A stretch of 6,983 bases of DNA from a bacterium (GTDB lineage: Bacteria; ARS69), in the NCBI GenBank assembly GCA_025774865.1, contig JALGZO010000493.1, forward strand, positions 1 through 6,983, given 5' to 3'. A model generated the notes under the pieces. That model was not told the origin of the DNA. It did not search any database and saw only the letters and a list, made by a program, of their open reading frames with translations. How positions within the stretch are numbered: the first letter of the stretch is position 1; every line of letters starts with the position of its first letter. Made by a program: the position numbers and the translations under genes. Below, piece after piece: positions 402 to 6,863 of this stretch.

Positions 402-881
402 GTGAAGTGGCTCATCGCCATTCCCGTCCTGATCCTGGCGGCCACGCTGTGGCTCCTCGCTCGCGCCGTCAGCCGCCTCCGCCGTCAGCTCGGAGAAGCT
501 GAGTCGAGACTCGCCCGTCGCTTCTACACGCTGCAGGGCCGCGTCACGGAGATCGACGTCACCGTCCGCGAGCTCCACTTCGAGCAGCGAAGGCGACGGG
601 GCGAGATTCGCTTCGACGCGTCGATGAAAGTCGACGAAGCCGTCGCGATCCATCCGAAAGTGCGAGAGATCTTCGCCGCGTTCGGAATCACCGGCGGAGG
701 CTGCGCGGGAGGGGGCGTGGACGAGACGCAGACGATCGCGGCGGCGAGCCGGCAGGCGGCGTTGGATCCCGCGGACGTGCTGGAGGCGCTCGCGAGATTC
801 GTCGAGAATCCGTCGGCTCCCATCGAGGCGCGCACCGCGACGGCCAAGCTCTACCATATCGGGAAGACCGTACTCAGTTGA
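402..881 (+). CDS. Membrane-anchored coiled-coil protein with a single-cysteine DUF1858-like domain
   Basis: The protein has 159 residues from the GTG start at 402. In order: one membrane segment at residues 4-20 (LIAIPVLILAATLWLLA), an Arg- and Glu-rich helical stretch at about 21-65 that looks like a short coiled coil, and a C-terminal domain at about 74-135. That domain reads 'KVDEAVAIHPKVREIFAAFG', then GGGC, then 'DETQTIAAA', matching the layout of the DUF1858 / hybrid-cluster-protein-associated redox disulfide family. The family normally has Cys-x-x-Cys after the Gly; here the first position is Gly98 and only Cys101 remains, the sole cysteine in the protein. Arginines right after the helix suggest the domain faces the cytoplasm. 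The specific function is unknown. The ATG at 348 is an alternative start that would add 18 residues. The gene is divergent from the ResB-like gene and overlaps the LON-domain gene tail to tail by 8 bp. Confidence 0.75.
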   Translation: MKWLIAIPVLILAATLWLLARAVSRLRRQLGEAESRLARRFYTLQGRVTEIDVTVRELHFEQRRRRGEIRFDASMKVDEAVAIHPKVREIFAAFGITGGGCAGGGVDETQTIAAASRQAALDPADVLEALARFVENPSAPIEARTATAKLYHIGKTVLS

Positions 882-1557
882 CGCTCGGGTTGTCCGGCTG
901 AAGATCCTCGTAGCAATTGAAGATGCGGTTCCTCTCCGTGCGCGCTCGCCCCATTTCGATCAAGGTCTTCCGAATCTTCGTCCAGCGCGCCAGAGAATCG
1001 GAGCAGCGGAGCCACTCGAGTTTCTTGGGAATCTCGACCGGCAGGTGCATCGCGATGGTGTGAAGAAGGGTGAGTCCGCCCTCGGGCTCCTGCTCGTCCG
1101 GCATGTGCTCGCGAAGAGCCTCTACGCATCCCGGACACGCGTCCTCCAGCAGACGCTTGAGCTCCAGGATCCGATCGCGCGCACCCGGCGATTCCGCGAA
1201 TGCCGTATCGCTCGGAGAACACCGGACCTCCACGGTCCGGTAAGGCTCCAGGGAAACGACCCGGCCGATCTCCACGACACGTTCCCCTTTCAGGATCAAA
1301 TCGGATCTACCGTCCTCGAGCGGCTGGTGCTCCACGACGCGCCCCACACACGCGTGACGGTAAATATCCGGATGAGCGGGACTCTCTTCGTGGCCGGGCT
1401 TCAGCACCCCCATCACGAAACGTTCCGAGCCGGCCAACGAGTCTTTCAACAATGCCTGGTAGCGAGCCTCGAATACGTGGAGAGGAAGAAGGGCGTTCGG
1501 GAAGAGTACGACGTGGGGAAGCGGAAAGAGGCCGAGCTGTGCGGGGATTGGATCCAT
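874..1557 (-). CDS. Stand-alone LON substrate-binding domain protein
   Basis: The protein has 227 residues. Its N-terminal half carries the signature of the Lon protease N-terminal domain: FPLP at 11-14, VVLFP at 16-20, PLHVFE at 25-30 followed by Arg-Tyr at 32-33, then GRV at 72-74 and LKGERVVEI at 89-97. The C-terminal half is helical and contains the usual 'LPVEIPKKLEWLR..DSLA' segment at about 172-190. No AAA+ ATPase (Walker motifs) or serine-lysine protease domain follows, so it belongs to the small uncharacterised proteins made only of this domain (the COG2802-like group). In Lon the domain helps bind substrates; what the free version does is not established. A CPGC motif at 141-144 is unusual and could bind metal or form a disulfide. 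The ATG at 1555-1557 has only a weak purine-rich site before it. It is divergent from queG. Confidence 0.85.
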   Translation of the reverse strand: MDPIPAQLGLFPLPHVVLFPNALLPLHVFEARYQALLKDSLAGSERFVMGVLKPGHEESPAHPDIYRHACVGRVVEHQPLEDGRSDLILKGERVVEIGRVVSLEPYRTVEVRCSPSDTAFAESPGARDRILELKRLLEDACPGCVEALREHMPDEQEPEGGLTLLHTIAMHLPVEIPKKLEWLRCSDSLARWTKIRKTLIEMGRARTERNRIFNCYEDLQPDNPSVN

Positions 1558-1584
1558 CTCGATTCCGATTCTCGGGGCTGCGAA

Positions 1585-1613
1585 AACCTACACCGTTTCC
1601 ACAGTCAGACCAA
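1585..1613 (-). promoter_or_regulatory. Candidate promoter of the LON-domain gene
   Basis: On the minus strand TTGGTC (1608-1613) and TAGGTT (1585-1590) are separated by exactly 17 bp. This would start transcription near 1578, leaving a 5' leader of about 20 nt before the ATG at 1557. The -10 has the same TAGGNT form as the candidate nrdJ promoter in this window. Both hexamers are partial matches, so this is a prediction only. Confidence 0.35.
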
Positions 1614-1656
1614 CCCCTCGGCCTAGACGCATTCGATGGTCGGGACGCAGCCAAGG

Positions 1657-1662
1657 TATATT
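1657..1662 (+). promoter_or_regulatory. Candidate -10 element placed for a leaderless queG mRNA
   Basis: TATATT ends 6 nt before the ATG at 1669, so a start site 7 nt downstream would fall on the A of the start codon. No convincing -35 hexamer is seen (CGATGG at 17-bp spacing). The only ribosome-binding-like sequence is AAGG at 1653-1656, 12 nt away and overlapping this region. Leaderless initiation is therefore one reading; a promoter further upstream is the other. Confidence 0.3.
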
Positions 1663-1668
1663 TCGGAC

Positions 1669-2709
1669 ATGGATCCACGCTCCCTGAAGCAGAGAATTCG
1701 GGATGAGGCGGAACGGGTCGGTTTCGACCGGATCGCGTTCGCCCCGGCCGGGCCCTGTCGCGACGGGGCTCACCTGCAACGATGGCTCTCGGACGGCCGA
1801 AACGGGGAAATGGCGTGGATGGCGCGCGATCCGGAACGTCGCAGCGATCCCCGGCGTCTCCTTCCCGAGGCGAAGACCGTCATCTCGCTTCTCACCTTCT
1901 ACGGTACGAACGGCGATCCCCCGCAGTGGCGCGGGCGCATTTCTCGGTACGCGTGGGGCAGCGACTACCACAATTTGCTGCAACGCCGAATGAGGAAGCT
2001 CGCCCGAGGCATCGAGGCGGCGGCGCCCGGGTCTCGGACGATCACCGCGGTGGATCACCGACCGATTCTCGAAAAGGAGTGGGCGGAGCGGGCCGGGCTC
2101 GGGTGGATCGGCAAGCACTCGAACCTCATCACGTCCGACCGTGGTTCATGGTTCTTTCTTTCCGAGCTCATCACGGACCTCGAGCTCGAAGCGAAGGAGC
2201 GCCCCCACGCGGATCGGTGCGGAAAGTGCACCGACTGCATCCGGGCTTGCCCGACCGGAGCCATCGTCGCCCCGTGGGAGGTCGATGCGCGTCGCTGCAT
2301 CTCCTACCTCACGATCGAGCTGAAGGGGCCGATCCCCGTGGAGCTGCGGCCACTCGTCGGGGAGTGGATCTTCGGCTGCGACGTCTGTCAGGACGTGTGT
2401 CCGTGGAACCGCTTCGCGGTGGCGGTCGAAGAGCCCCGCTTCCGGCTGGACGAGGGCCGGTTCGACGGGGAGCTCACGGATTTCGTCGGGATGACGGAGG
2501 ACGAGTTCCTGGAGCGTTTCGAGGGAAGCCCGGTCCGACGGGCCGGACGCGACGGCTTCGTGCGCAACGTGTGCGTGGCCCTCGGAAACCGAGGCGATGC
2601 GGGCGCGCTCCCGGCTCTGCGCGAGGCCGCCGAAGATCCCTCCACGCTCGTGCGTGAGCACGCGGTGTGGGCAATCGAGAGGATCGCCGCGACGGCCAGG
2701 TCAGCGTGA
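1669..2709 (+). CDS. queG: Epoxyqueuosine reductase QueG
   Basis: QueG carries out the last step of queuosine synthesis, reducing epoxyqueuosine to queuosine at the wobble base of tRNAs with a GUN anticodon. It is a cytoplasmic iron-sulfur enzyme that uses cobalamin. The protein has 346 residues, a normal length. The N-terminal DUF1730 part includes 'RISRYAWGSDYH' (90-101) and 'VDHRPILEKEWAERAGLGWI' (128-147), with Asp129 in the place of the catalytic acid and GKHSNL following at 148-153. The ferredoxin-like part has eight cysteines: 184, 187, 190 and 194 (CGKCTDCIRACP), 210 (CISYLTIE), and 237, 240 and 244 (CDVCQDVCPWN), enough for two [4Fe-4S] clusters. A HEAT-like repeat closes the protein at about 296-340, as in many QueG proteins. 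The ATG at 1669 is preferred because MDPRSLKQRI matches the usual short N-terminus; the ATG at 1636 would add 11 residues. No queuosine synthesis neighbours are present. Confidence 0.96.
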   Translation: MDPRSLKQRIRDEAERVGFDRIAFAPAGPCRDGAHLQRWLSDGRNGEMAWMARDPERRSDPRRLLPEAKTVISLLTFYGTNGDPPQWRGRISRYAWGSDYHNLLQRRMRKLARGIEAAAPGSRTITAVDHRPILEKEWAERAGLGWIGKHSNLITSDRGSWFFLSELITDLELEAKERPHADRCGKCTDCIRACPTGAIVAPWEVDARRCISYLTIELKGPIPVELRPLVGEWIFGCDVCQDVCPWNRFAVAVEEPRFRLDEGRFDGELTDFVGMTEDEFLERFEGSPVRRAGRDGFVRNVCVALGNRGDAGALPALREAAEDPSTLVREHAVWAIERIAATARSA

Positions 2710-3177: not shown

Positions 3178-6100
3178 CTACGAGCAGCCCACCGAGTTTC
3201 CGCAGTTCAGGCACTTGTAACAGGCCGCGTTGCGGACCGTGAGGTGCCCACACTGGTCGCAGAACGGCGCGTCCTTGCTCGCGAGCGTCAGCTGCTCCGC
3301 GACCCCACGGGATTGGACCTGGACGATGGATCGGTCTCCGCCGTTCGCGGACGGCCGGCTGCGATCCACCGCGGGCACCTCGGAATCCGATGCCGCGATG
3401 ACCCTGGCCGCCGGCTGCACGCGGGTCGCGACTCGGCCGGCCGGCTTCGAGCGGGCGGATTCTCCGGCGTCGCGAACCGCGGGGACGGGTTCCCCCCCGG
3501 TCGGTTCGGTCCCGTTCCCTTCCACGCTGTCGTGGTTCGCCGTCGGGGGCACCTGAACCAGCTCCGTCCGTCCGAGGTACTCCATCGCCAGCACACGGAA
3601 TACGTAGTCGATAACCGACGTCGAGAAGCGGACGTTGGGGTGATCCGTGTGGCCCTGCGGCTCGAAGCGCGTGAACGTGAAGCAATCGACGAACTCATCG
3701 AGCGGCACGCCGTACTGCAGACCGAGGCTCACCGCAATCGCGAAGCAGTTCATCATGCTCCGGAAGGCCGCTCCCTCCTTGTGCATGTCGATGAAGATCT
3801 CGCCGATGCGTCCATCGTCGTATTCGCCGGTACGCAGGTAGACCTTGTGCCCACCGACGCGCGCCTCCTGCGTGAACCCCGCCCTCTTGCGGGGCAGGCG
3901 AACCCGGATCGCCGGGCCGTCGCCGTTGACGACGGCAGCTGCGGCCACGACCTCGGGAACCGCTGGATCGGGCTCGCCATTCGCTTCCGACCTCTCGGCG
4001 GACGACGTCGAGAGCGGCTGACTCATCTTGCAACCGTCGCGATAGATCGCGATCGCCTTGAGCCCGTTCTTCCACCCGAAGTGGTAAAGCTCCTCGATCT
4101 CTGCGTCCGTCGCCTCTGACGGCAGATTCACCGTCTTGGAGATCGCGCCGGAAATGAAGGGCTGCGCCGCCGCCATCATCTTCAGGTGTCCTCGCGGCTC
4201 GATGAACCGCGTGCCCCTCTTGCCGCACCGGTTCGCACAGTCGAAGACGGGCAGGTGCTCGCTACGTAGATGGGGAGCGCCCTCCACGGTCATGCGGCCA
4301 CAGATGACATCGGTCGCGTGTTCGATTACCGACCGGGAGAATCCCACTTCCCGCAGCAGCGAGAAGCCCGGAGACTCCCAACGCTCCTTCGGAATCCCGA
4401 GACGATCCATGGCCCCCTCGCCCAGCAGCCACGGGCCGATCGTGGAGTCGAGATCGAACGCACCGGCGAGGGCCATCTCGATCTTGGCGATGTCGTCGCG
4501 GTCGAGACCCTTCTCGATCAACGTCTCGCGGTTGATGGCGGGACCGCCGTCCAGACTCATCGTGCCGCGCACGTACTGATCCATCTCGGCGATTTGATCT
4601 TCCGTGTAGCCGAGTCCCCGCAGCGACCGAGTGACCGACTGGTTCACGATCTTGAAGTACCCCCCGCCGGCGAGCTTCTTGAACTTCACGAGCGCGAAGT
4701 CAGGCTCGATGCCGGTGGTGTCGCAATCCATGAGGAGCCCGATCGTGCCGGTGGGCGCCAGCACCGAGGCCTGCGCGTTCCGGTATCCGAACTGGTCGCC
4801 GAACCAGACCGCCTCCTCCCAGTCCTGCCGGGCCGCCGCGATCAGTTCCTCCGGTCCCCCGCGTGCGATGTCGCGAGCGGCGTCGCGGTGCATCCGCATG
4901 ACTCGGCCCATCGAGACCGAGTTCGGTCCGTAACCGGGGAACGGGCCCTTGCGCGCCGCGATCTCCGCGGACACGCGGTACGCGTGGCCGGTGAGGATCC
5001 CGGTGATGGCGCCGCAGATCGACCGGCCTTCGTCGCTGTCGTAGGGCACGCCGAGGATCATGAGAAGTGATCCGAGGTTCGCGTACCCGAGGCCGAGCGG
5101 ACGGAAATCGTGCGATTGGCGGGCGATCTGTTCCGTGGGATACGAGCTCAGGTCGACGAGAATCTCCATCGCCGTGATGAGCACCCGGACCGCGTGGCGG
5201 AAGCCCTCGATGTCGAAGCGGCCATCCTCGTCCAGAAACTTCACGAGGTTCAGGGACGCGAGGTTGCAGGCGGAGTCGTCCAGGAACATGTACTCGGAGC
5301 AGGGATTCGAAGCGTTGATCCTCCCCGACGCCTTGCACGTGTGCCACGCGTTGATCGTGGTATCGAACTGGATGCCCGGATCGGCGCACCGCCAGGCGGA
5401 CTGGCAGATCTTGTCCATCAGATCACGGGCGCGATGGGTGTCCACGACCTCACCCGTCGTCCGCGCCCGGGTCTGCCAGACCCCGTCGTCCGCGACGGCC
5501 TCCATGAATTCGTCCGTGACCCGCACGGAGTTGTTCGAGTTCTGACCCGACACCGTCTTGTAGGCCTCGCCGTTGAAATCGGCGGGGAGGCCCGCGTCGA
5601 TCAGGAAGCCCGCCTTGTCCTCCTCGCGGACCTTCCACTCGATGAAGTTGACGATCTCCGGGTGGTCCATGTCGAGGCAGACCATCTTCGCCGCGCGCCG
5701 CGTGGTTCCACCCGACTTCGTGGCGCCGGCCGCCCGGTCGAAGACTTCGAGGAACGACATGAGACCGGAGCTCGTGCCGCCCCCCGAGAGCTTCTCGACG
5801 TCGCCACGCAGCGCCGAGAAGTTCGTGCCCGTGCCCGATCCGTACTTGAACAGCCTGGCTTCGTTCTTCAAGAGACTGAAGATCGACATGAGATCGTCGT
5901 CGACCGACTGGATGAAGCACGCGCTGCATTGAGGACGGCGGTAGGCTTCCTTGGTCTCGAAGAACGTGTCGGTCTCGGGATCCCACGCGTAGTTCCCGCC
6001 CGACCCTTCGATTCCGTAGGCGTGATACAGACCGCAGTTGAACCAGACCGGCGAGTTGAACGCCCCGCGCTGCTCCACGAGGATCGCGCTCAGCTCCGCC

Positions 6101-6537
6101 TCGAAGGTGGCCGCTTCCTCCTCGCTGGTGAAGTACCCACCGAGTTGCTCGCCGCCGTAACGGACCGTCCGGACGATGCGCCCGATCAGCTGTCGGACGG
6201 ACTGCTCCCGACCGCCATCCGAGAGCCCCGCCTTCCGAAAGTACTTGGACGCGACGATGTCCGTCGCGAGCTGCGACCACCCGACCGGTATCTCGAGATC
6301 GTCCATCTCGAACACCACCGACCCGTCGGGATTCGTGATGACCGAGCGACGCGTCTCCACCTCGACCGCGTCCAGAGGATCCGTACCCACCGAAGAAAAC
6401 CATCGACCTAAAGAGGAGGGCGCGGGGAATCGAGACCCAGCGTCCGCGCTCACTCGACCACTCCGCCCATCCACCGCATGAGCCTCGACCCCGCGACCCT
6501 CCGCCTCCGGCTTTCCGAGGACCCCCACACCCTTCAT
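3178..6537 (-). CDS. nrdJ: Class II adenosylcobalamin-dependent ribonucleotide reductase NrdJ
   Basis: NrdJ reduces ribonucleotides to deoxyribonucleotides, using adenosylcobalamin to make the thiyl radical, so it needs neither oxygen nor a small subunit. The protein has 1119 residues from the ATG at 6537. Visible motifs: FNSPVWFNCG (160-169), SACF with redox Cys207, NPCSE with Asn411, radical Cys413 and Glu415, SACNLASLNL with partner Cys424, and PTGTIG (595-600). A TSCPD-type domain spans about 875-990 (GEIFIDMHKEGAAFRSMMN, then GLQYGVPLDEF). A low-complexity linker (about 1000-1088) leads to a cysteine-rich tail with Cys1093, 1096, 1106, 1109, 1112 and 1118, a zinc-ribbon-like module whose last cysteines probably re-reduce the active site. 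No intein interrupts it and no ATP-cone is seen. The first ~45 residues are not conserved-looking; family similarity begins near RWFSSVGTDPLDAVEVE. A GTG at 6540 and a GTG at 6453 are alternative starts. It is the first gene of a two-gene operon. Confidence 0.97.
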   Translation of the reverse strand: MKGVGVLGKPEAEGRGVEAHAVDGRSGRVSADAGSRFPAPSSLGRWFSSVGTDPLDAVEVETRRSVITNPDGSVVFEMDDLEIPVGWSQLATDIVASKYFRKAGLSDGGREQSVRQLIGRIVRTVRYGGEQLGGYFTSEEEAATFEAELSAILVEQRGAFNSPVWFNCGLYHAYGIEGSGGNYAWDPETDTFFETKEAYRRPQCSACFIQSVDDDLMSIFSLLKNEARLFKYGSGTGTNFSALRGDVEKLSGGGTSSGLMSFLEVFDRAAGATKSGGTTRRAAKMVCLDMDHPEIVNFIEWKVREEDKAGFLIDAGLPADFNGEAYKTVSGQNSNNSVRVTDEFMEAVADDGVWQTRARTTGEVVDTHRARDLMDKICQSAWRCADPGIQFDTTINAWHTCKASGRINASNPCSEYMFLDDSACNLASLNLVKFLDEDGRFDIEGFRHAVRVLITAMEILVDLSSYPTEQIARQSHDFRPLGLGYANLGSLLMILGVPYDSDEGRSICGAITGILTGHAYRVSAEIAARKGPFPGYGPNSVSMGRVMRMHRDAARDIARGGPEELIAAARQDWEEAVWFGDQFGYRNAQASVLAPTGTIGLLMDCDTTGIEPDFALVKFKKLAGGGYFKIVNQSVTRSLRGLGYTEDQIAEMDQYVRGTMSLDGGPAINRETLIEKGLDRDDIAKIEMALAGAFDLDSTIGPWLLGEGAMDRLGIPKERWESPGFSLLREVGFSRSVIEHATDVICGRMTVEGAPHLRSEHLPVFDCANRCGKRGTRFIEPRGHLKMMAAAQPFISGAISKTVNLPSEATDAEIEELYHFGWKNGLKAIAIYRDGCKMSQPLSTSSAERSEANGEPDPAVPEVVAAAAVVNGDGPAIRVRLPRKRAGFTQEARVGGHKVYLRTGEYDDGRIGEIFIDMHKEGAAFRSMMNCFAIAVSLGLQYGVPLDEFVDCFTFTRFEPQGHTDHPNVRFSTSVIDYVFRVLAMEYLGRTELVQVPPTANHDSVEGNGTEPTGGEPVPAVRDAGESARSKPAGRVATRVQPAARVIAASDSEVPAVDRSRPSANGGDRSIVQVQSRGVAEQLTLASKDAPFCDQCGHLTVRNAACYKCLNCGNSVGCS
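6451..6464 (-). promoter_or_regulatory. Alternative nrdJ start: GTG with GGAG 7 nt upstream
   Basis: GTG (6451-6453) is preceded at 7 nt by GGAG (6461-6464). Starting here would give a protein 28 residues shorter, beginning closer to where family similarity starts. It competes with the ATG at 6537 and cannot be decided by eye. Confidence 0.35.
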
Positions 6538-6546
6538 CACCCGACG

Positions 6547-6554
6547 CCCCCCTT
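6547..6554 (-). promoter_or_regulatory. Ribosome binding site of nrdJ (AAGGGGGG)
   Basis: AAGGGGGG on the minus strand ends 9 nt before the ATG at 6537 and 6 nt before the in-frame GTG at 6540. It is the best site for the long form of NrdJ and the reason the ATG at 6537 was chosen. Confidence 0.5.
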
Positions 6555-6586
6555 CGAGAACGGGTCTTTCGAGAAGAGCGGGAGTG

Positions 6587-6607
6587 GCCCACGGGCAGCC
6601 CGAGGGC
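6587..6607 (-). other. GC-rich hairpin in the nrdJ leader
   Basis: The minus strand reads GCCC-T-CGGG-CTG-CCCG-T-GGGC: eight base pairs around a single symmetric U-U mismatch and a 3-nt loop. It lies about 50 nt before the nrdJ ATG. No U-tract follows, so it is not a standard terminator. It could slow ribosome loading or be part of a larger leader fold. Confidence 0.45.
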
Positions 6608-6634
6608 GATCCCCGATCTTCAACTCAAAGTTTT

Positions 6635-6640
6635 ATTCTA
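6635..6640 (-). promoter_or_regulatory. Possible second, proximal nrdJ -10 element
   Basis: TAGAAT, a 5-of-6 match to the bacterial -10 consensus, lies in the only AT-rich patch of the leader. It would start transcription about 90 nt before the ATG. The matching -35 position (CAAGGA at 17 bp) is poor, so this is a weak alternative to the promoter at 6835-6863. Confidence 0.2.
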
Positions 6641-6644
6641 TAAC

Positions 6645-6738
6645 GAACTCTCGACGATCCTTGATGACGCCGACAGCCGGCAAGGCCAGGAAGCGTCTCG
6701 GTCGACTTCCGCTTCCGAACCCCGACCTCGAGAGCTTC
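6645..6738 (-). promoter_or_regulatory. Candidate structured RNA in the nrdJ leader (three-way junction)
   Basis: Three inverted repeats nest as a closed junction. The outer helix pairs 6728-6738 with 6645-6654 (CTCTCGA with TCGAGAG, extended by GAA/TTC past one bulged G). The first inner hairpin pairs GGAAGCG with CGCTTCC (6710-6716 with 6689-6695). The second pairs CCTTG with CAAGG (6681-6685 with 6659-6663), with a GCCG/CGGC pairing inside. It matches no riboswitch class recognised here. GC-rich DNA readily gives chance pairings, so this is a hypothesis. Confidence 0.3.
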
Positions 6739-6810
6739 CGGGCCGCGGTCTCTTCGTGGGGGGGATGATCCAGTGTCGCTCGGTCCGATCCCAGCCAGAA
6801 GACTCGGCTC

Positions 6811-6826
6811 TCACAAGATCTTGAGG
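6811..6826. promoter_or_regulatory. Candidate NrdR box 1
   Basis: TCACAAGATCTTGAGG is a 16-bp near-palindrome centred on AGATCT with a perfect CAAGATCTTG core. It fits the known NrdR-box pattern (aCACwAtATaTwGTGt) at most conserved positions. It begins just past the predicted nrdJ transcription start. NrdR is an ATP-cone repressor of ribonucleotide reductase genes that binds paired boxes. Confidence 0.6.
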
Positions 6827-6834
6827 CACGGCGG

Positions 6835-6863
6835 ACCCTACGCCTCAAGATCTGGTGCGTCAA
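6835..6863 (-). promoter_or_regulatory. Candidate main promoter of the nrdJ operon
   Basis: TTGACG (6858-6863) and TAGGGT (6835-6840) are separated by exactly 17 bp on the minus strand, which puts the transcription start near 6828. The -35 is a 5-of-6 match and the -10 is weak. NrdR box 2 fills the spacer and box 1 lies just downstream of the start, so a bound repressor would block polymerase. The resulting 5' leader is about 290 nt. Confidence 0.5.
6843..6858. promoter_or_regulatory. Candidate NrdR box 2
   Basis: CCTCAAGATCTGGTGC shares the AAGATCT core with box 1. The two centres are 32 bp apart, with 16 bp between the boxes, the three-helical-turn spacing described for paired NrdR boxes. 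The CTCAAGATCTGGTG part keeps the outer C and GTG positions of the consensus. It overlaps the nrdJ promoter spacer. Confidence 0.6.

Follow-up and report, generated by a model that had tools for sequence, protein, structure and literature searches.

Paired NrdR boxes predicted in the promoter of the class II ribonucleotide reductase gene nrdJ in a sparsely sampled bacterial lineage

Introduction

In most bacteria, NrdR is a repressor that lowers the synthesis of DNA precursors. Its binding sites, the NrdR boxes, are 16-bp palindromes that come in pairs, are separated by 15-16 bp (31-32 bp centre to centre) and overlap the polymerase site (PMC12051234, PMC9110341). Their published consensus is acaCwAtATaTwGtg, in which positions 7 and 10 are written in lower case and are weakly conserved (PMC4009431). 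An initial annotation of the 6,983-nt stretch of bacterial DNA analysed here (the window) had noted two AGATCT-centred 16-bp palindromes, 32 bp apart from centre to centre, ahead of the gene nrdJ. One was placed within the 17-bp spacer of TTGACG/TAGGGT and the other just past the predicted transcription start. NrdR control was proposed, to be judged by the presence of nrdR elsewhere in the genome and by the retention of both boxes in relatives that keep nrdJ, and the GATC core was seen as a departure from the textbook consensus. This raises the question whether the two palindromes form an NrdR operator or whether they are better explained by another regulator, an RNA structure or a methylation switch.

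Results

The assignment of nrdJ is based on matches to NCBIfam TIGR02504 (595.7 bits, cut-off 400), PRK06556 (above cut-off) and Pfam PF02867, PF08471 and PF12637; a GTG is located just ahead of its ATG, at 6540. For comparison, we used four further genomes from the family (and phylum), one per genus, which together with the window represent five genera. NrdJ is 67-76% identical to its family orthologues. No other large reductase subunit was found in any of the five genomes, and neither class III NrdD nor any other class I or class III reductase was detected. Pfam revealed no ATP-cone in the window's NrdJ, so that dATP is not expected to control its activity through a domain of this kind, and the principal sensor of dATP may be NrdR.

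Apart from that of NrdR, the only ATP-cone found in the genome of the window (G000) stands at the front of an apparently uridine-kinase-like protein (L002, contig C466, ~451-1800, minus strand), the kinase reading having been made by eye. On the plus strand of the window, the gene at 1636-2709, likewise read by eye, has ferredoxin-like Cys motifs and a HEAT-like tail and likely encodes QueG (epoxyqueuosine reductase).

Direct reading and a script located two imperfect 16-bp palindromes on the minus strand, both with AGATCT at their centre (Table 1). The positions and the 32-bp spacing given in the initial annotation proved correct, and re-reading also confirmed how the palindromes are set into the promoter: box 1 fills the spacer between the -35 and -10 elements, sharing the last -35 base, while box 2 begins 8 bases past the -10 element, roughly at the expected transcription start. 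The pair thus overlaps the predicted promoter of a ribonucleotide reductase gene, and its centres are separated by whole helix turns, for which 31-32 bp is usual in NrdR operators. Both boxes match CNCNANATNTNGNG with 0 mismatches and agree with the published consensus wherever it is in upper case (C4, A6, A8-T9, T11, G13); the w at position 5 is missed by box 1, which has C, and certain lower-case positions also deviate. The promoter hexamers score 8/12, below the strict promoter scan, and are still credible because five genera share their position and spacing.

Table 1 Features of the nrdJ promoter region in the window, listed from the -35 element to the gene.
Feature	Position	Strand	Details
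-35 element TTGACG	6863-6858	minus	TTGAC in 5/5 genera
NrdR box 1 (predicted)	6858-6843, centre 6850.5	minus	GCACCAGATCTTGAGG, 5/8 base pairs symmetric
-35/-10 spacer, 17 bp	6857-6841	minus	
-10 element TAGGGT	6840-6835	minus	TANNNT exactly 17 bp from -35 in 5/5 genera
NrdR box 2 (predicted)	6826-6811, centre 6818.5	minus	CCTCAAGATCTTGTGA, 6/8 base pairs symmetric
Presumed untranslated nrdJ leader, ~270 nt	6538-6810	minus	downstream of box 2
nrdJ, adenosylcobalamin (B12)-dependent class II ribonucleotide reductase	3178..6537	minus	ATG start 6537 by alignment with relatives

The order -35, box 1, -10, box 2 was found upstream of nrdJ in all five genera, with the centre of box 2 lying 16 bp after the -10 element in each of them. 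All four other genera thus retain the pair along with nrdJ, at a centre distance of 32 bp in G002 and G003, as in G000, and of 31 bp in G001 and G004. C4 and G13 are invariant in all ten boxes. Box 2 of the four relatives reads CCACAAGATCTAGTG or CCACAAGATGTAGTG (pattern CCACAAGAT[C/G]TAGTG) at the same position; box 1 is looser, with degenerate forms in some relatives (G002 TTCAAAATGCTGAG, G004 CGCAAGATGCTGCA) that still keep C4 and G13. The sequence from box 2 to the start codon is not conserved among the relatives, which indicates that conservation is specific to the operator and the promoter.

An intact full-length nrdR was present elsewhere in the genome, on a separate contig (G000 C515:2199-2636). 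Its product scores 186.5 bits against TIGR00244 (cut-off 124.65) and combines an N-terminal Zn ribbon (Zn_ribbon_NrdR) with an ATP-cone domain. Since the bin is fragmented into 785 contigs and has 8.3% contamination, the linkage of nrdR and nrdJ depends on binning, which is countered by the similar identities of the two proteins to their family counterparts (70-74% for NrdR). The regulator was found in 5/5 family genomes, and its DNA-reading residues D15, R17 and R26-R29 are invariant in the five proteins. G004 also contains a fragment similar to the N-terminal part of NrdR (L131, C12:11434-11580; 26.5 bits); it carries two TAG stops and may be an nrdR pseudogene or a chance match.

Next to the local comparison, a pattern search for the pair motif (CNCNANATNTNGNG-N18-CNCNANATNTNGNG, 16 fixed bases) was conducted genome-wide. 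The 4.7-Mb genome contains one perfect match, at the nrdJ promoter; as the window boxes were in view when the motif was composed, the relatives provide the fairer test, and perfect matches (31 or 32 bp) in the five genomes were likewise confined to nrdJ promoters. Over 20 Mb of Markov sequence modelled on the window's intergenic region, with the same dinucleotide make-up, no pair with fewer than 2 mismatches turned up, and pairs with at most 2 mismatches would be expected by chance ~1e-4 times per 430 positions of such sequence. In none of the five genomes is there a second conspicuous box pair with a distance of 31 or 32 bp, be it before nrdR or elsewhere. The sole other pair of G000 with at most 2 mismatches (C462:18065-18110) was rejected, as it was no better than the reversed-pattern control.

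Similar pairs occur in other phyla. Among 79 upstream regions of nrdJ homologues, 33 contained a pair with at most 3 mismatches at 31-32 bp (shuffles ~0.2%), although many of these loci belong to related Rhodobacterales and are therefore not independent. Over tested spacings of 20-45 bp, the number of loci peaked at 31 bp (22), followed by 29 bp (15) and 32 bp (12). The window boxes agree with these nrdJ-linked boxes at C2, C4, A6, A8, T9, T11, G13 and G15.

The proposed NrdR control of nrdJ is thus supported by the regulator in every family genome and by the conserved pair in five genera, and the two boxes very probably constitute one NrdR operator that would repress nrdJ when dATP is plentiful. 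Binding of the palindromes by a different dimeric regulator is, in our view, very unlikely. The GATC core and GC-rich flanks are unlike the AT-rich textbook consensus, and NrdR binding is a prediction here, which could speak for such a protein; however, motif positions and 31-32 bp pairing correspond to those of nrdJ-linked boxes in other phyla, all five genomes encode an intact NrdR, and the genome-wide search gave no further perfect site.

Over 6812-6857, the window boxes are near-perfect inverted copies of one another (14/16, compared to 7-11/16 in the relatives), possibly as a result of recent gene conversion or by chance.

Their 94% complementarity might also be taken as a sign that a 16-nt inverted repeat (CACAAGATCTTGAGGC / GCCTCAAGATCTGGTG, 15/16 complementary, 14-nt loop) acts as an RNA hairpin, an attenuator or a DNA cruciform. 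This reading is likewise very unlikely. Box 1 lies upstream of the -10 element in all five genera and would therefore be absent from the transcript, and the complementarity over the box 16-mers is lost in the relatives, which keep the boxes themselves. Neither a terminator-like site nor an RNA family was found, and a hairpin or attenuator was hence rejected. The leader gave no indication of structure either: Rfam detected no RNA family and no cobalamin riboswitch in the window and the four relatives, and the fold was ordinary (z = -0.57), so that a cobalamin riboswitch or other structured leader was rejected as well. The distance from the centre of box 2 to the nrdJ start is long in all five genera, at 227-387 nt (window, L004, L005, L006 and L009).

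The GATC core of the window boxes turned out not to be a departure of the kind initially assumed. Counting both strands, G is the most frequent base at position 7 and C at position 10 in 19 good boxes taken from the best loci of other phyla; the commonest core is GATG, and none of the boxes in this small sample has GATC. The cores of the family's boxes vary as well, some reading GATC and others GATG, TATC, AATG or AATC. As positions 7 and 10 are also weakly conserved in the consensus, the GATC core appears to be ordinary variation. GATC methylation switching the promoter, suggested by the GATC in both window boxes, has a negligible probability and was rejected, because GATC is missing from box 1 in 4/4 relatives and from box 2 in G003 and G004, while the NrdR positions are kept.

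Discussion

According to the published model, an NrdR tetramer loaded with dATP and ATP occupies the two boxes, introduces a kink into the DNA and blocks RNA polymerase (PMC9110341, PMC12051234, PMC12176259). The architecture of the window, as far as it can be read from sequence, fits this model in every testable respect. We infer binding, tetramer formation, nucleotide control and repression from this published work. With plentiful dATP, NrdR carrying dATP together with ATP (or ADP) would assemble into a tetramer and bind the two boxes, which lie about three turns apart on one face of the helix; it would kink the DNA, bar RNA polymerase from the -35 and -10 elements and so repress nrdJ. Upon a drop in dATP, ATP-loaded NrdR would come off the DNA and nrdJ would be transcribed.

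The closest parallel is the nrdRJ promoter of Streptomyces coelicolor, which also drives a class II reductase and for which a cryo-EM structure with NrdR is available (PMC9110341). In that complex, D15, R17 and R26-R29 contact the DNA, and inverting the C4/G13 base pairs reduced NrdR binding at least 50-fold (PMC9110341). In both systems, a pair of 16-bp palindromes separated by about three helix turns overlaps a class II reductase promoter, each box has C4/G13, and NrdR has D15, R17 and the Arg run 26-29. Unlike in S. coelicolor, nrdR is not adjacent to nrdJ in the window's genome, and its own upstream region yielded no box pair; furthermore, the core is GATC, and NrdR binding is a prediction. 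As in the window, the Escherichia coli operons nrdHIEF, nrdDG and nrdAB carry paired boxes at the promoter; their centres are 31 bp apart, with a spacer of 15 bp (PMC12176259). While NrdR in E. coli acts on these three operons, which encode class I and class III enzymes (PMC12176259), one class II gene is the sole target found in the window's genome.

The window boxes are therefore best regarded as a normal NrdR pair, a well-supported but ordinary assignment. It confirms a reading that was made from raw sequence and leaves the view of how NrdR works unchanged, while adding a sparsely sampled bacterial lineage to those in which the known box pair occurs with this spacing and overlaps the promoter. 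It is plausible, though we would not yet call it probable, that NrdR in this lineage has shrunk to a one-promoter regulator of the sole reductase. As no ATP-cone was detected in this class II enzyme, deoxynucleotide supply would then have NrdR as its only sensor of dATP.
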